Source: Alphaproteobacteria bacterium
GTDB lineage: Bacteria > Pseudomonadota > Alphaproteobacteria > UBA9219
Direction: 5' to 3'
NCBI GenBank assembly: GCA_028691835.1
Contig: JAQUYN010000016.1
Span: 1 to 39,324, forward strand
DNA length: 39,324 nucleotides
In this document: positions 1,673-25,590 of the stretch, in pieces
How the letters are laid out: each line of letters begins with the position of its first letter
How positions within the stretch are numbered: the stretch's first letter is position 1
The notes under the pieces: generated by a model
Seen by the model: the letters and a program-made list of their open reading frames with translations, nothing else
Database searches by the model: none
What the model was told of the DNA's origin: nothing
Position numbers and translations under genes: made by a program

Positions 1673-1754
1673 CACACAATACAGATCATTCGCATTTGTC
1701 GATAGAGCGGGAGAGCTGAATTACCACGTCCACAAAGAGAGGAACGCGCAACAA

Positions 1755-1794
1755 CGCCGAGAGTCAGTCGCATAACCCAGACTCAAACTCGGCG
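1755..1794 (-). terminator. Hairpin downstream of rpmG
   Basis: Two 15-base arms (1755-1769 and 1780-1794) pair through an outer CGCCGAG/CTCGGCG stem, a small mismatch and an inner GTC/GAC. The hairpin sits 11 bases past the rpmG stop on the minus strand and is followed by TTGTTG, a weak U tract. It is probably the rpmG terminator. Confidence 0.5.
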
Positions 1795-1805
1795 CACGAA
1801 GAAAC

Positions 1806-1982
1806 TTACGACTTTTTGCCTTCTTTGATCTTGCCTTCTTTAAAGACAACGTGCTTACGAACGCGAGGATCGTACTTTTTCAATTCAAGCTTGGTCGTAT
1901 TCTTTGGATTCTTTTTTGTGACATAAAATACGCCCGTGCCAGCCGTGCTGACGAGCTTAATGTCATTCTTTGTCTTTGCCAT
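1806..1982 (-). CDS. rpmG: 50S ribosomal protein L33 (bL33)
   Basis: 58 residues, a structural protein of the large ribosomal subunit near the E site. The sequence begins [17 protein letters not shown], then [11 protein letters not shown] and the family core [22 protein letters not shown]. It lacks the CxxC pairs of zinc-binding L33, so it is the zinc-free form. AGGA lies about 9 bases before the ATG. The gene stands alone, with a hairpin just downstream. Length and sequence are typical for proteobacteria. Confidence 0.95.
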
Positions 1983-2330
1983 TTTCGTAATCCTACTTTT
2001 GATACGTGTCGTCGCGTCCCATAGGGTCGCATAAAGCCCCCGCCAACCTTGGATATAGGCAAGGTGCAGTGACGGCGCAATGTCTCGGAAATAAAGGGCA
2101 ATGTCAAGGTTCTTAGCAAACCTCTCCCCAACTTATATTACAGATATTGCGGGACGGGATACAAATACAGACACCTTCTGCCTATGGTTAAGAATTTAAT
2201 ATGGTTAATTGCCCATTTTTTATCATTTTTATGTCACCCCAGCATGAAACCATTAGTTTTCTAATACTTGGATTTCGAAAAAATGCTAAACTGTGAGAGT
2301 AAATCTAGTTATTTCAAAGGAATAATAGAT

Positions 2331-2894
2331 ATGAATCCTACTTACAAAATGAGGAATCGGTTTGTGTTTGTTGCCGCTTCCATATGTCTTCTCATTCCCG
2401 GATGTGCAACTCAGTCTTATGTAGCGCCACAGCCCGGAACGCCCACCGCAGCATCAACATATTATTCAGCATCAACACATGGCAGCGATACAATGACCTA
2501 TGCCTGTCAAGGGAATGAAACTTGGGGGGTGATTGAATTGGATGGTCTTATCCGAACATGGGCCGTTGATGGCAACGCTGAACACACAACTGCTGGAATT
2601 TATGACATCACGCCAAACGGTCAGCGGAACCTTCAAATTGTTCAGGATATCGATGGCAATCCACGAACAGTCTATCATGAGGGCCCCAATCTTATTTCAG
2701 ATTCTCAATTTGCAAAGAAAATCGTACTATTCCAAAATTCCTGTCGGTCCCTGAAGAAACGCGTTCGTGAAACCGGGATAAGTGAAACAGATCCCGACGT
2801 CAGGGTCAGTGAAAACGAGGAAATCGGCGTTGGTCATTACATACCAGTGCCAAGCAGCTTGATCCAAAGGATTAGATCCTTTTCACACAACTAG
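2331..2894 (+). CDS. Lipoprotein of unknown function
   Basis: 187 residues from the ATG at 2331, which has AAAGGA about 9 bases upstream; the frame is open 63 bases further but that part has no ribosome site. The N-terminus is a lipoprotein signal: basic MNPTYKMRNR, a hydrophobic stretch and the lipobox LIPGC, so the mature protein should be anchored by its cysteine in the envelope. The mature part has a Thr/Ser/Pro-rich linker, then a compact region with two further cysteines (TYACQGN and FQNSCRS) that could form a disulfide. I do not recognise a domain. It converges on the Sel1-like pair with only about 30 bases between. Confidence 0.75.
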   Translation: MNPTYKMRNRFVFVAASICLLIPGCATQSYVAPQPGTPTAASTYYSASTHGSDTMTYACQGNETWGVIELDGLIRTWAVDGNAEHTTAGIYDITPNGQRNLQIVQDIDGNPRTVYHEGPNLISDSQFAKKIVLFQNSCRSLKKRVRETGISETDPDVRVSENEEIGVGHYIPVPSSLIQRIRSFSHN

Positions 2895-11073: not shown

Positions 11074-11104
11074 TCTCCTCTTGCTGTTCCAAAGGCGGTT
11101 TTTC

Positions 11105-12892
11105 GTGCACAGCGCACCTCAACTTGTGATTGTATTGCTCTGCCTCATTTTGGCAGGCTGCACGAACACCTTCCCCACAGACAAAATCGACCCAGCGGGA
11201 AACTTAACCCGCGAAGATTACTTGTCGCTGCGTAATCGAGGGAAAGCAACCGAACAAGACCTAAACGACAATAGGGCTGATACAAAGGCTGTCTTACAAT
11301 CCCTTCACACAGCGCCCCCCATTCCACCGTTGCCGATGCCCGCACAACCCATCTTACTGGGGCGTGATGAGCCGCTCCCCAGCAAAAAAATCAGCGTTAC
11401 GCTCACGGAATCCGTCGCACTCCGTGATGTCCTGATCGAACTCGGTCGTGAAAGCGGTGTTAATCTTGAAATTGATCCCCGCATTCATGGCGGGATTATC
11501 TTTACGGCAAAAAACCAGCCCTTTAACACGGTTCTGCAGCGCATCTGTCTTCTGGCCGGATTGCGTTACACCGTCGATGGTGATTTTATCCGCATTGAAC
11601 TTGATGAGCCCTATCAACAAACCTATGCGCTGGATTACTTAAGCCTGTCGCGCCGCACGACCAGCGAAGTCACCATTGCGACAAATGTGTTTGACGTTGA
11701 CGTTGCGGGATCAAACGGCGGCAGTTCGAGCTCTTCGTCAAGTCGAGGAAATGGCGGAAGCGACAACAACTCGGTCGCTAAAATAACTGGCGCTGCTGAT
11801 GCCGATTTCTGGAGCGAGGTAGAAAAATCCATTCCACAAGTCTTGGCGACAGCAAACCGACGCAAATCAATGATCGTCGGACGACCCGAAGCAACGGACC
11901 CCAAACAACAAGATGCGAATTTCAGTCTGGACAAACAAGCGGGTCTTATCACCATATTCGGAAATGGCCTGCAGCAACGTGCGGTTAAGCACTACCTTGA
12001 GCGCCTACAAAACAAGGCCTCTGCACAGGTTCTAATTGAGGCGCGCATCGTGGAAGTTGAACTTTCAGACGAGTTTCAAAGCGGCATCAATTGGACCTCA
12101 ATCTTCAGCGATACGCTCAGCCTCGCGGCAGATTTCGGTGCCCCCGGCGCTGGGGCCGCCATGACAGCGGCGAGCAGTGGCCTCTTCTCAACAGCGCTTG
12201 ATACAGGCGATTTCTCAGGCATTCTCAAACTGGTTCGCACATTTGGCACAACACGCGTTTTGTCTTCACCGCGCTTGACGGTCATGAACAATCAAACAGC
12301 CGTATTAAAAGTGGCGCGCAACGAAGTTTATTTCCTGACATCCGCACAATTTCCAACGACAACAAATAGCAATGGCGTCGCCGTATCAGGCACACCCGTT
12401 TTTTCAAGCACGCCACGTACAGTCCCCGTCGGTTTAGTGATGACGGTCCAGCCCGCGATAAACAGCGATACAGGGCGCGTGACGATGACCCTGCGCCCGA
12501 CAATCTCACGCGTGGTGGACCGCGTCAATGATCCGTCGATTGGCTTGAACGCAGCCTACTCCGGCAACAGCGCAACCGTGCAATCTCAGATTCCTGTGCT
12601 GGCCGTACGCGAAATGGACTCGGTTCTTCAGCTCCAGTCTGGCGAAGTCGCTGTGATGGGCGGACTGATGCAAGACAGCTCTGAAAACCAAGATCAAGGC
12701 GTACCGCCCTTTGACACCTTTCCCCTTGTTGGCAATCTTGCGAAATCACGCGACAATCAAGGCCGCACAAGTGAGCTTGTTATTCTCTTACGCGCCACGA
12801 TCTTGAGCAACCCACGCCCAGATGCCGCTGACGCCAATCTCTATGAAAAATATAACCGCGATCCTCGCCCCTTCGAAATTCCTGAAACCTGA
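11105..12892 (+). CDS. mshL: MshL-like pilus/type II secretin
   Basis: 595 residues from the GTG at 11105 (AAAGG 9 bases upstream; a TTG at 11081 is in frame). The signal ends in the lipobox LILAGC, so this secretin is probably a lipoprotein. It forms the outer-membrane ring through which a pilus or substrate leaves. Residues about 85-165 are an N-terminal ring domain (VALRDVLIELGRESGVNLEI), followed by a Ser/Gly-rich linker at about 200-222, and the secretin core from about 310 (VLIEARIVEVELSDEF ... SSPRLTVMNNQTA ... VPVGLVMTVQP ... GEVAVMGGLMQ). First gene of a tightly packed operon of pilus genes. Confidence 0.92.
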   Translation: MHSAPQLVIVLLCLILAGCTNTFPTDKIDPAGNLTREDYLSLRNRGKATEQDLNDNRADTKAVLQSLHTAPPIPPLPMPAQPILLGRDEPLPSKKISVTLTESVALRDVLIELGRESGVNLEIDPRIHGGIIFTAKNQPFNTVLQRICLLAGLRYTVDGDFIRIELDEPYQQTYALDYLSLSRRTTSEVTIATNVFDVDVAGSNGGSSSSSSSRGNGGSDNNSVAKITGAADADFWSEVEKSIPQVLATANRRKSMIVGRPEATDPKQQDANFSLDKQAGLITIFGNGLQQRAVKHYLERLQNKASAQVLIEARIVEVELSDEFQSGINWTSIFSDTLSLAADFGAPGAGAAMTAASSGLFSTALDTGDFSGILKLVRTFGTTRVLSSPRLTVMNNQTAVLKVARNEVYFLTSAQFPTTTNSNGVAVSGTPVFSSTPRTVPVGLVMTVQPAINSDTGRVTMTLRPTISRVVDRVNDPSIGLNAAYSGNSATVQSQIPVLAVREMDSVLQLQSGEVAVMGGLMQDSSENQDQGVPPFDTFPLVGNLAKSRDNQGRTSELVILLRATILSNPRPDAADANLYEKYNRDPRPFEIPET

Positions 12893-12906: not shown

Positions 12907-13578
12907 ATGCTCAAGCAGCCTTGTCCCTCAACGCGTCGTAGAGGGTTCACACTTGTTGAACTCTCCATTGTTCTTGTTATCATTGGCCTGATTATCGGCG
13001 GGGTGCTGACGGGTCAACAAATCATCCAGAATGCGCGGATCAATAATGCGGTCAACGGCATTCAAGCCTATCAAGCGCAATTTCAAACCTATGCCCAAAA
13101 CTATGGGGCGCTTCCCGGCGACGACCCAAGCGCATTGACGCGGTTTCCGTCACTTAAACAAGTTGAAGAAATTGCCAATGGCAATAATGACGGTAATGTC
13201 GGGACAAAAACTTCATTCGATACATCGGCGGAATCGGGAACGGCAGCAGAAAGTCTTGCGATATGGGCTCATCTTCGCGCTGCTGGTCTTGTAAAAAATC
13301 AAGTAACAAATGGATCAACAGCCATTCAACCCCCCAACCCTTTTGGCGGGATGTATGGTTTTCAAAGAGGCGCGTTTGGCGTGTTTACAACAACAACTCT
13401 ATGCCTTGACAAAGTTTCAGCTGGCCCCGCGCAGGCCATTGATGCGCGTCTTGATGATGGGACCAGCGATGCTGGAGCCATTCAGGCGACAATCTATACA
13501 GACGTTGGCAAAAGCGATGCAGCGCCCGCCTCGACCTATAGCGACGACAACACCTATACTCTGTGCGTCAAAATGTAA
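12907..13578 (+). CDS. Type IV prepilin-like protein (pilin 1)
   Basis: 223 residues. The leader ends RRRG and is followed by FTLVELSIVLVIIGLIIGGV, the prepilin peptidase site and hydrophobic helix with the conserved glutamate at position +5. The globular part has ALPGDDPSALTRFPSL and a late cysteine pair region (TTLCLDKV and YTLCVKM), which may form the C-terminal disulfide loop. GGAG lies before the ATG. It is likely the main fibre subunit or a major pseudopilin of this machine. No prepilin peptidase is encoded in the window. Confidence 0.88.
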   Translation: MLKQPCPSTRRRGFTLVELSIVLVIIGLIIGGVLTGQQIIQNARINNAVNGIQAYQAQFQTYAQNYGALPGDDPSALTRFPSLKQVEEIANGNNDGNVGTKTSFDTSAESGTAAESLAIWAHLRAAGLVKNQVTNGSTAIQPPNPFGGMYGFQRGAFGVFTTTTLCLDKVSAGPAQAIDARLDDGTSDAGAIQATIYTDVGKSDAAPASTYSDDNTYTLCVKM

Positions 13579-13586
13579 AAACCCCC

Positions 13587-14423
13587 ATGATGAAACCTGA
13601 CAACATGAGCAACATACGGCGCGGCTTTACGCTTATCGAGATGAGTCTTGTTCTGGTTATTATCGGCCTCGTTATCATGATTGTGTTTCCGGCGCTTAAT
13701 GCTGTGCGGCAAAGCTTTCAACAAAGCATGACAGCCTCAAACTTGTCTTCGCTGTTACGCGTGACAGCCGCCTATGTTCAGGCGAATGGATGCCTTCCCT
13801 GTCCCACGCCAGCCTCAACGCTCGGCGCTGGCTTTGGGCGCGTGCGCGGGGACACGATCAACGCCGCCTGCGGAACATGCAATGTGCCCGAAGGCATTGC
13901 CCCCTTTGCCTCATTGGGAATTCCCTCATCAACAGCCAAGGATGGATGGGGCCGGTGGATCACCATGCGCATTGATCCCGCTTTGGCGATCAATTTCGGC
14001 ATCATCCCCCCAACAGCGCCCAACTTGACGGCCACAACATTATGCCCGCAAGGTCAAAGCTGCACAGGATTGTGTCAGGCCAATTTATCAACCGCTGATC
14101 GCATCCACGTCTTGACACAAAGCGGAAGCGACCAACAAGCCGCCGTTCTTTTCCTGAGTCACGGCGCGAACGGATTGGGGGCCTATCATGCCGACCCGTT
14201 ATTAAATGAAGGCATAGACCAACACCCCACATTTCGCGGCGTGTCCACGGCATGTTCGGAAACCGGCGGGTTTGAACGATGCAACGCAAACGGCGATTCT
14301 GATTTTGTTCAGGGAGGATTTACGCCAGACGCAAGCGCCCCTTTCGACGATAGCCTGCTCTATCTGGATCGCAACGCGCTTGTTGCTTATCTGGGCAATC
14401 CAGCTTGTCAATCGGTGTGGTAA
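13587..14423 (+). CDS. Type IV prepilin-like / GspH-type protein (pilin 2)
   Basis: 278 residues from the ATG at 13587; ATGs at 13590 and 13605 are also possible, and 13605 would give a shorter leader (MSNIRRG). No start has a strong ribosome site, so coupling to the gene just upstream is likely. RRG|FTLIEMSLVLVIIGLVIMIV is the prepilin cleavage and helix motif. The mature part is cysteine-rich (NGCLPCPTPAS, NAACGTCNVPEG) and has the DGWGRWITMRID motif of large minor pilins. It is probably a minor pilin or tip subunit. Confidence 0.85.
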   Translation: MMKPDNMSNIRRGFTLIEMSLVLVIIGLVIMIVFPALNAVRQSFQQSMTASNLSSLLRVTAAYVQANGCLPCPTPASTLGAGFGRVRGDTINAACGTCNVPEGIAPFASLGIPSSTAKDGWGRWITMRIDPALAINFGIIPPTAPNLTATTLCPQGQSCTGLCQANLSTADRIHVLTQSGSDQQAAVLFLSHGANGLGAYHADPLLNEGIDQHPTFRGVSTACSETGGFERCNANGDSDFVQGGFTPDASAPFDDSLLYLDRNALVAYLGNPACQSVW

Positions 14424-14425
14424 TC

Positions 14426-16219
14426 ATGAAAAACACAGCCAAGCTTCAAACGCTTTCCCCCACCAAAACGCCAAAGGCACAGGACCCGGCGCCAACAAAA
14501 ATGACCTCAGCGCAAAAGATCGGGGATCTTCTTCTTGGGATGAAGGCCCTATCGCAAGACCAACTTCACATCGCCCTGCATGAGCAAAAAACGACGAAAG
14601 AAATGTTAGGCGAGATTCTTGTTCGATTAGGCTTTATTGATCAAGACGTTCTCGCCATCGGTCTTGCAGCTCGCGCAGGGATCGAACCCATCGATCTCAG
14701 CACCACCTATTTTGATACTGAATTATTGCGACAACTCCCCAAAGAGAGCGCCGCAATGGCCCTTGCCTTACCGCTCAGCCTTGACCATCATAAACTCGAG
14801 ATCGCAATGGCCGATCCATTTGACGTGATCGCGTTGGATGAAATCCGTCGCCACTTTCCACGGACGCTGCAAATTGTTCCACGCGTAGCCAGTCGTTCGG
14901 CAATTGAGGCCTTGATTGCCAATCTTGATAACAGTTTCGGATCAATTGATGACATACTGACGCATCTTGAAACAGGCTTTCGCGAACCCGATGCGGCAAG
15001 TTACGAGCACCCCGTTATTCAACTCGTCAACCATCTCCTCACCGATGCCGTACGGCGCGGCGCATCCGACATTCATTTAGAGCCGGAAGATAACTTTGTT
15101 CGCATTCGTTTTCGCATCGATGGAACCTTGCGCCAAATTCGGGCCTTGCACCAAACACATTGGGCCGCCCTTTCACATCGTCTCAAAATCATGGCGGGAA
15201 TGAATATCGCCGATACGCGTAGCATCCAAGATGGGCGGTTTCAACTTCAAATCAATGGAGACGATGTCGATTTTCGCGTAGCCATCATGCCCTCAGTGTG
15301 GGGGGAAACGATTGTCGTGCGGCTGCTCGACCATCGAAAATCCCTATTGCCGCTTGCTGCACTGGGTTATTCGACAACTTGCGAAAAAAAGCTGACGCAA
15401 ATCTTTGAAAAACCACAAGGTTTGATTTTTGTCACAGGTCCAACCGGCAGTGGAAAAACAACAACGCTGTATTCTGTTCTCAAAAAAATCAGTGCCGTTG
15501 ATGTGCATATTGCGACGCTTGAAGATCCCGTAGAATTTCAGCTAGATCTGATCCGCCAAACAGCCATTCAATCTTCTACGGGTCTTGATTTTGCCGCCGG
15601 CGTGCGCGGCCTTTTACGTATGGACCCAGACATTCTTTTCATTGGCGAGGTGCGTGATAGTGACACGGCGCAAATGGCCCTACGCGCCGCTATGACTGGC
15701 CATCAAGTCTATTCCACTTTGCACTGCAACGATGCCCTTGGCGCTTTGCCGCGCCTTATGGATCTTGGCCTGAACCCCCGTTTACTGTCTGGAAATCTCA
15801 GCGGTCTCATTGCGCAACGATTAGTGCGTAAACTGTGCCCGCATTGCAAAACAGAGCGCCGGGCGACAAATGATGAAATGAGTATCTTCCGCCAAGCCGG
15901 ACTGATTGAAGAAGACTCCCCACAGCTTATCGCGGAAGCGCGGGGGTGCCCAGCGTGCGAACAAACCGGACGCAAAGGACGCACTGTAATCGCTGAAATT
16001 CTTCCCATCACTCCGGCTCTTGATGATTTAATTGCCGCAGACGCACCGCGCATACACTTGTTGACACAGGCGCGGATCGAGGGTTTTTTCACCATGCAAG
16101 AAGATGGCCTTACCCGTGTCTTATACGGCGATATTGCCATGTCGGATTTACGGCGCGCTGTCGATCTTTCGCGACTGACGATGACTACGCCTGTTCGCTC
16201 ATCGAGGACGGCAGCATGA
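14426..16219 (+). CDS. mshE: MshE/GspE-type pilus assembly ATPase
   Basis: 597 residues from the ATG at 14426, three bases after the previous stop. This is the cytoplasmic motor that drives fibre assembly. It has an N-terminal MshEN/GspE-N-type region (AQKIGDLLLGMKALSQDQLHIAL), Walker A GPTGSGKTTTLYS near residue 337, an Asp box IATLEDPVEFQ, Walker B LLRMDPDILFIGEVRD, and a His box TGHQVYSTLHCND. A four-cysteine zinc site (CPHC near 470, CPAC near 507) is present, as in PilB/GspE. The frame overlaps the next gene by ATGA. No PilT-type retraction ATPase is in the window. Confidence 0.93.
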   Translation: MKNTAKLQTLSPTKTPKAQDPAPTKMTSAQKIGDLLLGMKALSQDQLHIALHEQKTTKEMLGEILVRLGFIDQDVLAIGLAARAGIEPIDLSTTYFDTELLRQLPKESAAMALALPLSLDHHKLEIAMADPFDVIALDEIRRHFPRTLQIVPRVASRSAIEALIANLDNSFGSIDDILTHLETGFREPDAASYEHPVIQLVNHLLTDAVRRGASDIHLEPEDNFVRIRFRIDGTLRQIRALHQTHWAALSHRLKIMAGMNIADTRSIQDGRFQLQINGDDVDFRVAIMPSVWGETIVVRLLDHRKSLLPLAALGYSTTCEKKLTQIFEKPQGLIFVTGPTGSGKTTTLYSVLKKISAVDVHIATLEDPVEFQLDLIRQTAIQSSTGLDFAAGVRGLLRMDPDILFIGEVRDSDTAQMALRAAMTGHQVYSTLHCNDALGALPRLMDLGLNPRLLSGNLSGLIAQRLVRKLCPHCKTERRATNDEMSIFRQAGLIEEDSPQLIAEARGCPACEQTGRKGRTVIAEILPITPALDDLIAADAPRIHLLTQARIEGFFTMQEDGLTRVLYGDIAMSDLRRAVDLSRLTMTTPVRSSRTAA

Positions 16220-17427
16220 AGGTCTTTGCCTATCGCGCCGTGCACGCCGATGGACGGATCCACAAAGGCCGGATGATGGCCGCAAACGAAAACGAACTTA
16301 CGTTTCAGTTGCGCGAAATCAATCTGGAGTTAATTGAAGCGAAAACAACGCAGACCCGAACAACAAGACGACAACTTGCCAGAACCTCATATCTTGCCAC
16401 AGATCGTATCACCTTATGCGGGCAGCTCGAAGATATGTGCGGCGCGGGCGTATCCTTGATCGACGCCCTAGTAACAATAACAGAGACAATGTCTCAAGGC
16501 GCCATGCGCAACACCCTTGTCAATATCGTGCAAGACATACGATCCGGCCAAAGCCTTTCGCGCGCCTTTGCCGAAGATCAAGCCCTCTTTGATCCCGTCA
16601 CTTTGGCAATTTTGCGCGCCGGAGAAACGAGCGGAAATCTGACAACAACCTTCGAGCGCATCACCAAACACCTGAAGGCCGAAGACCGAATTCACCGCAA
16701 ACTGCAAAAGGCCTTGCGCTATCCGCTGTTCTTGCTTTGTGTGGCTGGCGGCGTCATCACTTTTATGATGATATTGGTTGTGCCGCAAATCATTACCTTT
16801 TTAACAAGTCTTGATCATGACCTTCCTTTTATGACGCGCCTCTTAATCCGTTGCGCCGATGTCTTCGCAACAGTGTGGTGGTTATTACCGCTCTTACTCG
16901 TCAGCACAGCTCTGATACTTCATCTTGCACGAACAACTCATTCAAAGGCGCGGGTTATTACGGATCGATGGCTTTTATCGGTTCCAGCGCTTGGCCCTGT
17001 TTTACGCAAGCTTGCCATGACTCGACTGACAACAAGTTTAAGTCTTCTTATCAAAAGCAGCTTTACGGTTCCCGACGCCCTCAAGATTTCTGTGGCAACA
17101 TTAGGCAACGCAGCCCTTGAAAAGAGCGCAACCCACGCACTTCAACAGTTGGAGGAAGGCCGACCGCTTTCTTGCGCCTTGGCAACGCTTTTCCCTTTAC
17201 CAATTCTGCAAATGTTGAGAATTGGCGAGGCAAGCGGGCAAATGACGAAAGCGCTTGAACACATCGCGCAAAACTATGATCGCGAAGCACAAGACTCCGT
17301 TGATGTCTTGCTCGGCGTCATTGAGCCTGCGCTCACACTGTTTGTCGGGGCCCTGCTAGCATGGATCGTGCTGGCTGTCCTTGGGCCTGTGTACAGCTCT
17401 CTTGCCCCTTTATCGCAAGGGATGTAG
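16216..17427 (+). CDS. mshG: MshG/GspF/PilC-type inner-membrane platform protein
   Basis: 403 residues. It begins MKVFAYRAVHADGRIHKG, as GspF proteins do, and contains two copies of the T2SSF helical domain (about residues 65-190 and 268-395; key pieces LCGQLEDMCGAGVSLIDAL and ALEKSATHALQQLEEG...LRIGEASGQMTKALEHIA). Three membrane helices are visible near residues 170-195, 215-240 and 375-398. It couples the assembly ATPase to the pilin helix in the inner membrane. Start overlaps the ATPase stop. Confidence 0.92.
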   Translation: MKVFAYRAVHADGRIHKGRMMAANENELTFQLREINLELIEAKTTQTRTTRRQLARTSYLATDRITLCGQLEDMCGAGVSLIDALVTITETMSQGAMRNTLVNIVQDIRSGQSLSRAFAEDQALFDPVTLAILRAGETSGNLTTTFERITKHLKAEDRIHRKLQKALRYPLFLLCVAGGVITFMMILVVPQIITFLTSLDHDLPFMTRLLIRCADVFATVWWLLPLLLVSTALILHLARTTHSKARVITDRWLLSVPALGPVLRKLAMTRLTTSLSLLIKSSFTVPDALKISVATLGNAALEKSATHALQQLEEGRPLSCALATLFPLPILQMLRIGEASGQMTKALEHIAQNYDREAQDSVDVLLGVIEPALTLFVGALLAWIVLAVLGPVYSSLAPLSQGM

Positions 17428-17431
17428 GCGC

Positions 17432-18895
17432 ATGATCAACCCGCGTCAGTCTTTTCTGCTTTTGATCGGCGACGATGGCGCAATACTTTTGCCCCCTCAA
17501 AATCATGGATGCGAGGCAGCCCTCCAAGCGCCCTCCCATCACGAAAAAGACTGCGCAGCTCTTTTCAATCGTATCGCAAAGGATCCCTCACTTCCCGTTC
17601 ATATTCTGGCCGATACGCTGACACAATCCTATAAAATAGAGGCCATTCCGTCTCTGTCGTTCTTTGATCGTCGCAAACTTGTGGCCAGACGTCTTGATCA
17701 AGCCTTTCCAAAAGCAATGCTGAAAGCAAGCCGTGTTCTACAAAAGCAAAAGGCTTTGCTCATTGCGCTTGAAACCAAGGGAGCCATGGATCTGTGGCTT
17801 GAACGACTGGCCACATGCCCCAACCCATCCGGCGTTTGTTTGCTTCTGCCGATAGAGTGTTCGGACATGATGACATCGTTGCTGCCTGAATCGAAGAACG
17901 GGTGGGGATTGCTCGTTATGGCGCAAAAAACAGGGGGTCTGCGGCAAATTGTCACGCATAACGGTCACTTTGTTTTTACGCGCCTGACGCCCCCCTTATC
18001 TGAAACAACTGGCGCCGCGTTACAAGCTGCATCCTTGGCGCTGGACATAAAGGCAACACGTGACTATTTGTCTCGTTTTGGTCTTACCCATGACACGCCT
18101 TTGCATATGGCCGCTATTCTACCTTTATCCATGCATGCCGCAATGGCCGCCATTCCTCTTGATGTCACTTCACGATGTTTACTGACCCCCCACGAAACCG
18201 CAGCGGCACTTCGTCTTTCATCAAGGCCTTTGCCGTTTGAACCGATGGCCGATTTGAACGCGTTGCTCTGGGTCGCGCGGAAAAGGAAAGCCCGACTCCC
18301 CCTGATGCCAGAACATGTTCGCCTTGCGCATACCTCAAATATGATCCGAGCCGTCGGGATGACGCTGGCCTTATTTGTGATGCTGCTGACGGTACTTCTC
18401 GGAGGATTTCGCGGCTATACTCTTTTCGATCAAAAAAGACGGATTGATATCACGCGCACACAAGTCCGTGCGTTAGAGGCTGAACTTCAGCACGCCCAAG
18501 TCACGCTTGCCCCTGCCGCTGAACCTTTGGGCCGCCTGCGCCGTGCAGCTGAACGGCAACGCCTCTTCACGCAGTCTCCTTGCAAACTGTTTGCGCTTTT
18601 GATGCCAATTGCCGAGGCGATTAACAGGCAAGCTCGGGTTACACGTCTTCACTGGCATGAAAACATCTTGACCCTCGACATCACGCTTTTCGATGAAAAA
18701 AGCCACAAAATCGGGCAGATCGAAACACCTTTTCAAACATTACATGAAAAGTTACGCGCCGCCCTGCCGAACGCAAAAGTCGAGAAAAATGACACGGAAG
18801 CACCAAAGCTCACAAACGTCGTCCTTTCAAACGAAGGCGAACACCCCGCACCCCCAGCCATGACACGCTTTGTCATCACAGTCGATAAGCCATGA
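17432..18895 (+). CDS. PilM/PilN-like (GspL/MshI-type) inner-membrane assembly protein
   Basis: 487 residues from the ATG at 17432, with TAGGC just upstream. The first 300 residues look cytoplasmic and PilM-like (KLVARRLDQAFPKAML, SLALDIKATRDYLSRFG), then one membrane helix near 305-330 (VGMTLALFVMLLTVLLGG), then a coiled coil (RIDITRTQVRALEAELQHAQ) and a small PilN/GspL-like periplasmic domain. The single-protein layout is that of GspL. The family assignment rests on position and topology more than on clear motifs. It would form the alignment complex with the next two proteins. Confidence 0.7.
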   Translation: MINPRQSFLLLIGDDGAILLPPQNHGCEAALQAPSHHEKDCAALFNRIAKDPSLPVHILADTLTQSYKIEAIPSLSFFDRRKLVARRLDQAFPKAMLKASRVLQKQKALLIALETKGAMDLWLERLATCPNPSGVCLLLPIECSDMMTSLLPESKNGWGLLVMAQKTGGLRQIVTHNGHFVFTRLTPPLSETTGAALQAASLALDIKATRDYLSRFGLTHDTPLHMAAILPLSMHAAMAAIPLDVTSRCLLTPHETAAALRLSSRPLPFEPMADLNALLWVARKRKARLPLMPEHVRLAHTSNMIRAVGMTLALFVMLLTVLLGGFRGYTLFDQKRRIDITRTQVRALEAELQHAQVTLAPAAEPLGRLRRAAERQRLFTQSPCKLFALLMPIAEAINRQARVTRLHWHENILTLDITLFDEKSHKIGQIETPFQTLHEKLRAALPNAKVEKNDTEAPKLTNVVLSNEGEHPAPPAMTRFVITVDKP

Positions 18896-19494
18896 CAAAC
18901 AACGAAGCCAAAAACCATCGACACCTTACATGGGGGGCAAGTCTCGTTGCGGCCCTTCTTCTGATGTTTGCCGTTTGGCCTCTCTCAGACTCAGTTCAAG
19001 AATATCTAGCCACCGAGCAAAAAAAGTTGTCAGCACAAAAAACCAGATTAGAGCTGCAAATCCAACAGTGGGCGCAGGACGCCCAAACAGCACAAAAGCT
19101 TGCTCAAACACTATCGTCCGCCGATGTGGAAAACCTTCTCGCTCCCATGAACAGAAAGGAAATGACCGCGCAGCTTGAACCTCTGGCATCGGCATCACGC
19201 TTGGCGCGCATGACCTATACCTTGTCACCTGCGCAATCATGGAATGGTGGCGACCAATTCCCAGGCATCAACGACGTGACCGTCAGCACGCTTTCCCTTG
19301 AGGCAGATGCGCCGGAAGATGATGACAGCTTTATGTATATACAAAGCTTGTCCGAGCTTCCGGGTCAATTTGAACTCCATGAGCTTGAACTTCACCCGCT
19401 GACCGACGCGCCTAACATTGCGCCGCGTGCGCTCAACCTTCACATGAAGGCAATCCTCTACTGGCTTGCCAATGCAGAAAACAGGGGGCCGTGA
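18892..19494 (+). CDS. PilO/GspM/MshJ-like inner-membrane assembly protein
   Basis: 200 residues, start overlapping the previous stop as ATGA. A short cytoplasmic tail, one membrane helix (about 14-32, WGASLVAALLLMFAVWPLS), a coiled coil (ATEQKKLSAQKTRLELQIQQ) and a periplasmic domain with a beta-alpha-beta pattern (VTVSTLSLEADAPE...QFELHELELHPL) match the PilO/GspM architecture. Sequence conservation in this family is low, so position in the operon carries much of the call. Confidence 0.7.
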   Translation: MTNNEAKNHRHLTWGASLVAALLLMFAVWPLSDSVQEYLATEQKKLSAQKTRLELQIQQWAQDAQTAQKLAQTLSSADVENLLAPMNRKEMTAQLEPLASASRLARMTYTLSPAQSWNGGDQFPGINDVTVSTLSLEADAPEDDDSFMYIQSLSELPGQFELHELELHPLTDAPNIAPRALNLHMKAILYWLANAENRGP

Positions 19495-19497
19495 ATC

Positions 19498-19911
19498 ATG
19501 CTTATTCGGATCATCCGCTTCTGTTTGTTAACGTGTTTGTTGATGTGTTTGTTGACCTTGGGTAACGGCGCGGCACAGGCCCGCGCACCATCCCTGTTTT
19601 TTACGCAAGAGGAACGCCTGCGCATTGATGAAGAAGTCCGCAAAAACCCGCCGGATGCAGCCGTTCGCGCCAAGCATCTGCTTCATCTAAGTACAATCTT
19701 ATTTTTTGGGACTGATGACTGGTCAATCTGGCTGCAAGGCGAAAAGTGGACTCCCGCCACAGATAAACCTGACATCCATATCCTTGCTGTGACACCCGAT
19801 GAAGTCCACCTCTCAGTCAAACTCCACAGTGGGCGCATCATCGAACATGTTCTTCTTCGCCCCCACCAAAGCTTGAACCTTCTCAACGGCCAAGTGATTG
19901 AAGGATTTTAG
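19498..19911 (+). CDS. Small periplasmic pilus-assembly protein (MshK/PilP/GspC-like position)
   Basis: 137 residues with a long hydrophobic signal (IRFCLLTCLLMCLLTLGNGAAQA). The mature part holds a compact beta-rich segment: LHLSTILFFGTDDWSIWLQG, then ILAVTPDEVHLSVKLHSGRI and HQSLNLLNGQVIEGF, similar in pattern to the homology-region domain of PilP/GspC that contacts the secretin. It is the last gene of the plus-strand operon. Function is inferred from place and topology; no firm motif. Confidence 0.6.
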   Translation: MLIRIIRFCLLTCLLMCLLTLGNGAAQARAPSLFFTQEERLRIDEEVRKNPPDAAVRAKHLLHLSTILFFGTDDWSIWLQGEKWTPATDKPDIHILAVTPDEVHLSVKLHSGRIIEHVLLRPHQSLNLLNGQVIEGF

Positions 19912-19961: not shown

Positions 19962-20852
19962 CTAGAAGAACTTCCGCGCCATCCACCGAACCCACCAACG
20001 CGGCCAAAAAGGCAAGCCCTGCGTTTCTCGACAGGCGGCACGAACATGTACAGTGTCAACGCACATGACGCCTTGAGCATAGGCGGCCAACAACGCCTTA
20101 TCCGCCAACACATTAATCAATCGTGGCAAGCCGCCGCTGGCCTTTGCCAACAGCTTGGTCGCTGAAGAAGAAAAACAAACATAGTTCTGCGTTTTCTTTT
20201 TCTTACCGCGTCCAACTTTCTGACAGCATGACTCAATCCTATGCCGCAGATAATCACCGACAGCATCTTGAGAAAGCGGATGCGTCACAAAGCTGAAATT
20301 AATCCGCTGCAAAAACTGGCGCATATCCGTGCGATGTAAAAGGCGATCAAGTTCAGCTTGACCAAAAAGAACAATTTGCAGCAATTTGTCGGTTTCCGTT
20401 TCCAGATTTGACAAAAGACGAACGGCCTCAAGACCCTGAACGCCTAAGGCTTGTGCCTCATCAATCACAAGCACATTACGGCGCCCCTTGCTGTGCTGTT
20501 CCAACAAATAAGTCCGTAAAGCACTGATAGGGTCGGCCTTGACCCCTTTAAGCTTCAACCCGAACTCTTGCGCAATAAGCAAAGGCATGTGTGCCGCGTC
20601 TATCGCAACAGGCGCATTGATATAGGCCATATTCACGGGCTGAGAACGAAGTGAGGCTAACAAAAGGCGGCATAAAAGCGTTTTGCCCGTACCAACCTCG
20701 CCGACAATCTTAACAAAGCCATCGCCACGCGACACAGCAAATGCCAAAGCCGCCATAACACGTTCAGTTTCTGGGACTGGATAGTAAAATTGAGTATTCG
20801 GCGTTAAAGCAAAGGGATAATCGTTTAAACCAAAATGATCGAGAAAGGGCAT
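19962..20852 (-). CDS. mshM: ExeA/MshM-type AAA ATPase
   Basis: 296 residues. It begins MPFLDHFGLNDYPFALTPNTQFYYP, the typical start of ExeA/GspA and MshM. Walker A is GEVGTGKT (51-58), Walker B VLVIDEAQ (127-134), followed by sensor and winged-helix-like AAA parts (LSNLETETDKLLQIVLFGQAELDRLL; ASGGLPRLINVLADKALLAA). Members help assemble the secretin or position the machine. The usual C-terminal membrane helix and peptidoglycan-binding domain of ExeA are absent; the protein ends soon after the AAA part with a basic WVRWMARKFF tail. It follows the MshN-like gene by 8 bases and converges on the plus-strand operon. Confidence 0.85.
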   Translation of the reverse strand: MPFLDHFGLNDYPFALTPNTQFYYPVPETERVMAALAFAVSRGDGFVKIVGEVGTGKTLLCRLLLASLRSQPVNMAYINAPVAIDAAHMPLLIAQEFGLKLKGVKADPISALRTYLLEQHSKGRRNVLVIDEAQALGVQGLEAVRLLSNLETETDKLLQIVLFGQAELDRLLHRTDMRQFLQRINFSFVTHPLSQDAVGDYLRHRIESCCQKVGRGKKKKTQNYVCFSSSATKLLAKASGGLPRLINVLADKALLAAYAQGVMCVDTVHVRAACRETQGLPFWPRWWVRWMARKFF

Positions 20853-20860
20853 GGGACTGT

Positions 20861-21839
20861 TTACTCTTCTTGAGAATCAAGCGTTGGTGAAATGGTGGAT
20901 CCGCCTTGAACAACTTTTTTTCCACGCAATCTCGTTGCAAGATAATCCATTCTTCGCTTGGCCTCGACAGGCAGAAACTTAGAGCGTATCTGACGATAAA
21001 CATTCAACGCCGCATCCTCCTGCCCGACACGGTCATATAAGATCGCAAGGCTCAGCTGTAAGGCTTGATTCTTAGGATCAAGTGAGGCCGCACGTTTCCC
21101 CGCCATCAAGGCCTCCTCCGCCCGATCTTGCGCAGCCAGCATTCGCGCATAGGCGGCGTACAAGGATGCATTGACGGGATTAGCATCGATCATATCCTCA
21201 ATCTCAGAAAACGAATCCGCGAACGCCCCTTGCTCTAAAACAAAGATCTTGCCATCAATAGCTTTGCGATTATGCGGGCTGGTCTGAAGAATATCGTCAT
21301 ACAAACTCAGGGCCGTTATCCAATTCCGTTCAAGCGCGGCCTTCGTGGCTTGCCTAAGATTTGACGCCAGACTTGACGAGCCGACGGAATTAGAAGCGCG
21401 ATCGACCGTGCATCCCTCACAGGGGACAACATGACCGCCCTCGCTTTCTGACAACATAGGCACACCAATAAGCTGTTTTTCAACTTCAGAAAGAGCTTCC
21501 TGTTGCTCTGATAATAAGCTCATCGCCTCGGCAGGAAGAGCGATGCCGTCCGCGACTGCTCGCGCAGGGTCAAGGGCCGATGGCGATGTAACAGGGCTAG
21601 ATATATCAGCCTGCTGATTCTGCGGAACAACAGGAATCTGCCCACGCGCATCATAAAAAAAGAGAGAAATCGCCAACCCAATAAATGCACAAGCAAAAAA
21701 AAACTGTAACCCAAACGATAGACACAGACCGATAACGGCCCGGCACGCGTTGTGCAGGAACAATGGGAATAACAACAGCATCGCTGGCCCCATGATAATC
21801 ACGAGCAGCTTTGCTAAGGGCTTCAAAGAGAACACTCAT
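20861..21839 (-). CDS. MshN-like TPR protein, split by a one-base frameshift
   Basis: From ATG 21839 the frame gives a good MshN-type N-terminus (MSVLFEALSKAARDYHG) and the start of a membrane helix (VSIVWVTVFF), then runs off to a stop after 62 residues. A second frame, open from a GTG at 21835, carries on the helix (ACAFIGLAISLFFYDARG), a Pro/Ser-rich linker and TPR repeats (WITALSLYDDILQTSPHNRKA; VNASLYAAYARMLAAQDRAEEAL; QALQLSLAILYDRVGQEDAALNVY). The shift falls at a run of nine A (21695-21703; T9 on the coding strand): eight would join both parts. A run of seven A (21655-21661) is a less likely site. Joined length is about 325 residues. Whether this is an error, damage or a switch cannot be told here. 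Confidence 0.8.
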
Positions 21840-22070: not shown

Positions 22071-23570
22071 ATGCTGGATTGGTGGAAAAATTGCAATTTA
22101 ATGATCAAGATTTTTGCCCCGCAACTCCTTGTCGTTATTGTGTGTGCTATTTTAATTATCACCGCTCGGATTGGATTCACAACCCTCAATGACAGTACTG
22201 AAAAAATGATGAGCAATGATGTCGCACGCATCATTCTGGCTCTTGAAGGGCGTTCTGCACTCAACAGAGTTGAAGGCGCTGTTAAATCCTTCCTTCTCGC
22301 AGAAACACCCGAATCTTATACAAAAACAAAAAAAGCCTATGAAGATGTCCATTTAGAAATTACAGCCAAGCTAACAGACATGCTGAACATGATTAAGAAT
22401 CCAGCGCGCAAAAAGATTATGACTGACTCCATAGCCGCTATAGAAGAATACGACAGATTATCTCAGTTAGCGGCTGCGGCTAAACAAAAGAACGACCTGA
22501 CGACAGCCATACGCTTTACACAAGAAGCCAGCGTTTATCGCGTTCAAACACGTGAAAATCTTTCAGACATAATTGACTCCTATAAAAAAGACATCAAGCA
22601 ACAAAGAGAAGAAATGGCAGAGCTGACACGTTCGACCAAGTTCAATCATCTCTTGATCTCAATACTTGGACTGGGCGTTGCCTATGGCATTCTTTGGTTG
22701 ATTATTGTCGGTGCGATGAAACAACGCCATCAGGACATGCTGAATCTTGCCAAAGATTTTGAAGACAGCGTCAAGGCCGTGGTTGACGATGTCTCGAAAT
22801 CGGCAGGCGAACTTAAGACAGCCGCCGACACACTTGCAACAACATCGCAAGAGTCCAATAAACTTACAGGCACCGTGGCCGCCGCTGCCGAGCAAACATC
22901 CTCCAACATGCAAACGGTCGCAACGGCAACGGAAGAACTGACTTCGTCAATCGGAGAGATTAGCCGCCAAGTAAGCGAGTCCTCAGATATTACGCAAAGA
23001 GCTGTAGAACAAGCCAATACGACGAACAAAACAGTGCGCGATTTGGCGGATACAGCAGAGAAAATAGGCCAAGTCATCAACTTGATTGGCGAGATTGCAA
23101 GCCAGACAAACCTTCTGGCCCTCAATGCGACAATTGAAGCGGCCCGCGCAGGCGAAGCAGGCAAGGGCTTTGCCGTTGTGGCCTCGGAAGTCAAATCACT
23201 CGCCACACAAACGGCTAAAGCAACGGAAGAAATCACGCAGCAGATAAGCAGCGTACAACAGGCAACAGCCACATCCGTCAATGAGATTGAGCGTATTCGG
23301 GAAACGATTGTGGGAATCAATCAAGTCTCGACCCGCATCGCTGCCGCCGTGGAAGAGCAAGGCACGGCGACCCAAGAAATCGCAAGAAATATTGCAGAAG
23401 CCACAACAGGCACCCGTGATGTATCGCGCAATGTCAGCGGCGTCAGCCGTGCGGCAGAAGAAACAGGGGCCGTATCATCGCAAGTGCAGATGGCAGCGCA
23501 AAAGTTGACTGACCAATCATCAATGCTGCGAAGCAAAGTCAACACGTTCCTTCAAAAGGTACGGGCCTAA
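22071..23570 (+). CDS. Methyl-accepting chemotaxis protein
   Basis: 499 residues. GAGGGT lies before the ATG. TM1 is at about 12-32, a periplasmic four-helix-bundle type sensor domain ([21 protein letters not shown] ... [14 protein letters not shown]) spans about 33-190, and TM2 is at 191-216. The cytoplasmic part is a long coiled coil with the signalling tip [21 protein letters not shown] and [21 protein letters not shown] see no clear HAMP domain: the TM2 is followed directly by the coiled coil ([19 protein letters not shown]). It controls CheA through CheW; no che genes are in view. The gene is divergent from the MshN-like gene, so it may serve the pilus. Confidence 0.9.
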
Positions 23571-25432: not shown

Positions 25433-25590
25433 GCGAAACTCTCCAATAAGCAAAAATGTTAACGTCCGGTTCTATAACGAGGCGAGGCCAAGAGCAATGG
25501 TTAATGCACCCAATCTTACATCTCGCGACCGAAAGTTAGTTAAAAAAAACAAACTCCATGGCTTCGTTATCACATTAATGGTTTCAAAGA

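Follow-up and report, generated by a model that had tools for sequence, protein, structure and literature searches.

The locus studied here raises the question of why a gene resembling an accessory gene of a type IV pilus should be written in two reading frames that meet at a run of nine identical bases. It lies in a stretch of 39,324 nucleotides (the window, by which we mean the whole stretch of DNA analyzed), contig C87 of a 2.54-Mb assembly of 146 contigs that is 93.6% complete with 5.3% contamination. The host is probably Micavibrio-like and possibly predatory; the NCBI taxonomy assigns Micavibrio to Bdellovibrionota. An earlier note, made from the sequence alone, had put forward four explanations for the break: a phase-variable switch, a recent loss, programmed +1 slippage that yields some full-length protein, or a base-calling error at a homopolymer. 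The features of the gene and its neighbors are collected in Table 1.

Table 1. Positions of the mshN-like gene, its parts and the neighboring genes in the window.
Feature	Positions	Strand	Remarks
MshL-type secretin	11081-12892	+	Intact
Two prepilin-like genes	12907-14423	+	Intact
MshE-type ATPase with MshEN domain	14405-16219	+	Intact
MshG/PulF-type inner-membrane protein	16216-17427	+	Intact
Genes at the mshI, mshJ and mshK place	17432-19911	+	Named by position; orthologues in G005; intact; without Pfam family
mshM-like (ExeA/MshM-like) AAA ATPase	19962-20852	-	Intact; downstream of mshN
mshN-like gene	20861-21839	-	N-terminal cytoplasmic motif, one membrane helix and TPR domain, spread over two frames
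TPR frame	20861-21703	-	Second half of helix and TPR domain; open to TAA at 20861-20863
T7 run (A7 on +)	21655-21661	-	Second, less likely junction
T9 run, coding strand (A9 on +)	21695-21703	-	Point of frame change
N-terminal frame	21704-21839	-	From ATG 21839, MSVLFEALSKAARDY... and first half of membrane helix; stops at codon 63 (21651-21653) if read on; motif kept in seven relatives
GTG opening TPR frame	21833-21835	-	4 bases downstream of ATG; probably accidental 324-aa ORF
Methyl-accepting chemotaxis protein	22071-23570	+	Divergent neighbor of mshN; conserved synteny

The frame break was confirmed in the assembly. Translation of the minus strand from the ATG gives MSVLFEALSKAARDYHG...VTVFF, in a frame that encodes MSVLFEALSKAARDYHGASDAVVIPIVPAQRVPGRYRSVSIVWVTVFF, with a stop after 62 residues. 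The TPR frame, already open ahead of the T9 run, continues to its TAA, with no stop in the 279 codons after the run. When the orthologue from a genome of the same genus (G005) was compared with the window by tblastn, its residues 1-50 matched at 21839-21699 and its residues 78-293 at 21604-20933, in different frames; a scan of codon usage also switched frame in this part of the gene. Sequence, translation and the two-frame match thus bear out the earlier description of an mshN-like gene divided at the nine-base run, which is the longest homopolymer of the window (the runner-up is a single A8 at 25542). The run of seven had been named as a second, less likely junction, and that ranking stands: codon usage does not separate the two (0.15 for the nine-base and 0.20 for the seven-base run), and predicted helix hydropathy (2.51 vs. 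1.91) favors the nine-base run, since joining the frames there would give one uninterrupted hydrophobic helix and joining them at the seven-base run would place an Asp inside it. Because the helix uses Phe codons, T-rich runs arise naturally in this part of mshN.

Upstream, the TPR frame stays open as far as the GTG at 21835, so that a single ORF of 324 aa with an unrelated N-terminus can be read, and an automatic gene caller could list mshN as that one intact ORF and hide the break. Genuine translation from the GTG would give a 324-aa protein whose N-terminus is new and hydrophobic, and would make use of an open frame that runs through the TPR domain and of the hydrophobic stretch that it contains (LLVIIMGPAMLLLFPLFLH). 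We regard such a product as highly improbable, given that the conserved N-terminus sits in the ATG frame, and that codon usage over the first 90 bases scores 7.8 for the ATG frame against -2.2 for the GTG frame. In six relatives in which the matching out-of-phase frame was translated, it always met a stop and never joined the TPR frame; it was open for 51 and 62 codons in two of the six, so the 46 open codons of the GTG frame are unremarkable and their openness is probably accidental.

Architecture and position across both frames mark the gene as the MshN-like accessory member of a type IV pilus cluster of MSHA type. A short cytoplasmic N-terminus with the conserved motif MSVLFxALxKAARDY is followed by one helix and a TPR_19 match, and an mshM-like AAA gene adjoins; the NCBIfam search returned no match to an MshN model. 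The cluster brings together an MshL-type secretin, an MshE-type ATPase with MshEN, a PulF-type protein and prepilins, with TIGR02519 (MshL) as the best NCBIfam match of the secretin (E 6e-66) and with PF05157 (MshEN), T2SSF and N_methyl in consecutive genes. Because the secretin scored 222-225 bits, under the curated NCBIfam MshL cut-off of 250.2, the cluster is MSHA-like and not typical by the MshL model; none of the 24 genomes in the family reached this cut-off either. Orthologues in G005 were found for each of the neighbors of mshN (mshM-like ATPase, secretin, MshE-type ATPase, PulF-type protein and prepilins). None of the other pilus genes gave a two-frame match against G005 and all have open frames, in agreement with the earlier statement that the rest of the cluster is intact. 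Vibrio MshN (VC0404) is similarly a TPR protein beside an ExeA-like ATPase, MshM, with homologues of MshL, MshE and MshG in its cluster, whereas the window gene is broken at T9 and differs in gene order and strand; the two are likened by architecture and position only.

Seven members of the genus or family (G001, G002, G004, G005, G006, G010, and G012) have an intact mshN orthologue in one frame. All seven share the N-terminal motif, the single helix and the TPRs, and six have an mshM-like gene beside mshN. The longest runs in these orthologues measure 5-8 bases, with base and position varying, so that a conserved T9 tract, as looked for in a contingency locus, was present in none of the seven, and the pairing of a run with two frames, as looked for in programmed slippage, was absent from all seven single-frame homologues. 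The earlier note had proposed comparing run lengths in related genomes and had reckoned with a stable break at another place: no such break was seen, and neither was a relative with a nine-base run. A scan of genome contigs with the window protein detected no close relative, and a second scan with a genus alignment recovered three of the known orthologues and otherwise unrelated TPR matches. In relative-rate tests mshN showed 34 window-only vs. 19 G005-only changes with G002 as outgroup and 32 vs. 25 with G010, which suggests an acceleration that is at most slight. The gene thus appears little decayed, which implies a recent break or a product that is still in use.

Among the four explanations, recent loss is the best supported, by the clean downstream frame, the slight or absent acceleration and the intactness of all seven orthologues, and we favor a recent replication-slippage frameshift in this accessory pilus gene, with a probability of roughly 0.57; the clean frame and the weak relative-rate signal are what point to recency. 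Replication slippage in the T-rich stretch that encodes Val-Phe-Phe of the membrane helix would have shifted the frame at the present T9. Most transcripts would then yield only a peptide of 62 residues that lacks the TPR domain and in which the end of the helix is altered, and a minority, their length changed at U9 by slippage of RNA polymerase, might still give full-length MshN. The pilus would probably still assemble without MshN. If a slippage mutation is all that happened, this is an ordinary case of gene breakage at a homopolymer, with a caution for annotation in that the 324-aa ORF could mask the break.

The reliability of homopolymers in the assembly was assessed by a census of frameshifts on sampled stretches (660 kb of this genome and 759 kb of G005), in which 248 G005 proteins had a clear match, covering 235 kb. 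Four two-frame matches emerged. Besides mshN they were murA, interrupted by a gap of ten N, one fragment lying where a contig ends, and an antisense ORF judged spurious; mshN is hence the sole frame change among the 248 that has no scaffold gap, contig end or antisense ORF behind it, and the general frameshift rate is low. No frame change occurred at any of the 48 runs of 7-8 bases within the covered 235 kb. The whole 2.54-Mb genome holds ten A/T runs of at least nine bases, three of them in genes (mshN included); the other two in-gene A9/T9 runs, in CheY-like (C22:2602) and MotB-like (C72:12409) genes, leave their genes intact, as do in-gene G/C runs of nine (in genes read as metG, hemE, rpoN, argS, and others). 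Given the census and these intact runs, homopolymers in general appear to be read correctly, and systematic homopolymer error was rejected as a general cause on the strength of the census. The ten-N scaffold gaps suggest that the assembly was built from short reads.

The base-calling error suggested earlier is thus unlikely as a general homopolymer fault. In its other form, the gene would be truly intact and the nine-base run alone would have been misread or misassembled, or would be a consensus made from two variants; this is unlikely too, but it is the most probable of the rivals to a slippage mutation. The break amounts to a one-base indel at a homopolymer, and the assembly is fragmented, with contamination and scaffold gaps as given above; every orthologue is intact; and at low coverage spurious pseudogenes are common (PMC11017572). 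Yet no other homopolymer frame change turned up among the 248 compared proteins, about a dozen further in-gene runs of nine are intact, the break site is far from the contig ends, and frameshift pseudogenes are fewest in Illumina assemblies (PMC11017572).

Several minor observations on runs and breaks were made in the same genome. The CheY-like and MotB-like genes with nine-base runs are both apparently motility-related, which, with three cases only, is probably chance. The murA gene (L043, G000:C11, 9985-9997) is broken only by the ten-N scaffold gap and is a pseudogene-like artefact. Outside the 248-protein census, a second homopolymer frame break was located in a gene for an HTH-type regulator (L134, G000:C45:9000-13000; 1709-2394, minus strand), which is split in two frames at a G8 run (C8 at 2044-2051); its family has 13 matching places in the genome, and homologues here and in relatives are in one frame and about 215-275 aa long. 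The longest run seen in the genome, a G13 (L128, G000:C96:19000-23000; 1888-1900), lies close to where a gene read as hypA ends, next to unresolved N bases, and is possibly an artefact. The contig ends L036 (G000:C4), positions 1-200, and L133 (G000:C123) appear to overlap in one secretion-ATPase gene, but an indel between them gives a frame change at the edge. A C10 run (C15:12452) at which the frame seemed to change was set aside, as it lies between genes.

For the earlier proposal of an on/off switch, no positive evidence emerged. At a contingency locus, fast switching of run length would turn MshN on and off in the population, and mshN, a surface-structure gene, does have nine A/T bases in a row precisely where its two frames meet; slippage at such runs is in principle reversible. 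However, the tract is missing from all seven intact relatives, mutS and mutL are present and intact, which rules out a hypermutator background, and long runs elsewhere in genes are intact; the genome showed no enrichment of long tracts of the contingency type, A/T runs of nine or more being rare. With the tract unconserved, mutS and mutL intact and long tracts unenriched, an evolved phase switch is without positive support, and we judge it improbable. Campylobacter-type contingency loci are comparable in that an intragenic mononucleotide run sets the frame of a surface-structure gene, but theirs are G/C tracts, many in number and recurrent across strains, and mshN has a single unconserved A/T run. 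The literature searched held no report of homopolymer phase variation of MSHA pili.

Findings in V. cholerae bear on what a varying run could achieve. There, surface pili stay at the wild-type level when mshM or mshN is deleted, although mshN insertions suppress a motility defect (PMC4624765). Since pili are kept in such mutants in normal amounts, a cell without MshN may well keep its pilus, and even a variable run would not be expected to switch the pilus itself, which counts further against the on/off proposal. Micavibrio pili are thought to aid attachment to prey (PMC3189940). We consider it quite improbable that mshN is truly phase-variable, with the surface behavior of an uncultured, possibly predatory bacterium tuned by changes of run length in a pilus accessory protein and not in the pilin; should the run vary in the population, a Micavibrio-like lineage would provide an unusual case of an MSHA-type accessory gene controlled by run length.

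Slippage during transcription bears on whether the broken gene is silent. Bacterial RNA polymerase slips where nine A or T follow one another (PMC5009743, PMC1088944), the E. coli enzyme doing so efficiently (PMC5009743), and a length of about nine A or T has served as the criterion for transcriptional slippage (PMC1088944). On T8 the E. coli enzyme gave about 10% deletion-type slippage, restoring a reporter (PMC6260861). The mshN locus has a run of this length at the overlap of two frames, and it is plausible that slippage of RNA polymerase on U9 still supplies some full-length MshN as a minor product, the rates being those of E. coli RNA polymerase, from an organism other than the host. Ribosomal -1 frameshifting on U UUU UUU was rejected, as translation then enters the third, wrong frame.

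Such leakiness would be incidental here. Programmed recoding, in which RNA-polymerase slippage has been selected to give two products, has precedents in Shigella mxiE and Citrobacter tssM1, where functional protein is made through slippage, and it would accord with the efficiency of U9 runs as transcriptional slippage sites and with the cleanness of both mshN frames. We nevertheless consider it very improbable for mshN: T9 is not conserved in relatives, the frame requires deletion-type slippage, which is usually the rarer direction, and the -1 ribosomal shift leads to the wrong frame. A slippery run, as the programmed +1 slippage of the earlier note would need, is present, but the run and the two-frame arrangement are unconserved in all seven homologues. 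In mxiE, too, two overlapping frames meet at nine T on the coding strand; mxiE, however, needs an added RNA base, the opposite direction to mshN, whose run is unconserved and known from sequence alone. In Citrobacter rodentium tssM1, a membrane-machine gene is likewise interrupted at a homopolymer and full-length protein arises through slippage, but there the run is A11, the slippage is of insertion type and experimentally shown, and the C-terminal part is lost, whereas the mshN break falls inside the membrane anchor. The mshN tract offers a ready site at which to measure transcriptional slippage on U9 outside enterobacteria.

The chemotaxis receptor gene that diverges from mshN showed two further features. 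It stays linked to mshN and mshM in several relatives, and it evolves unequally, with 36 window-only vs. 76 G005-only changes.
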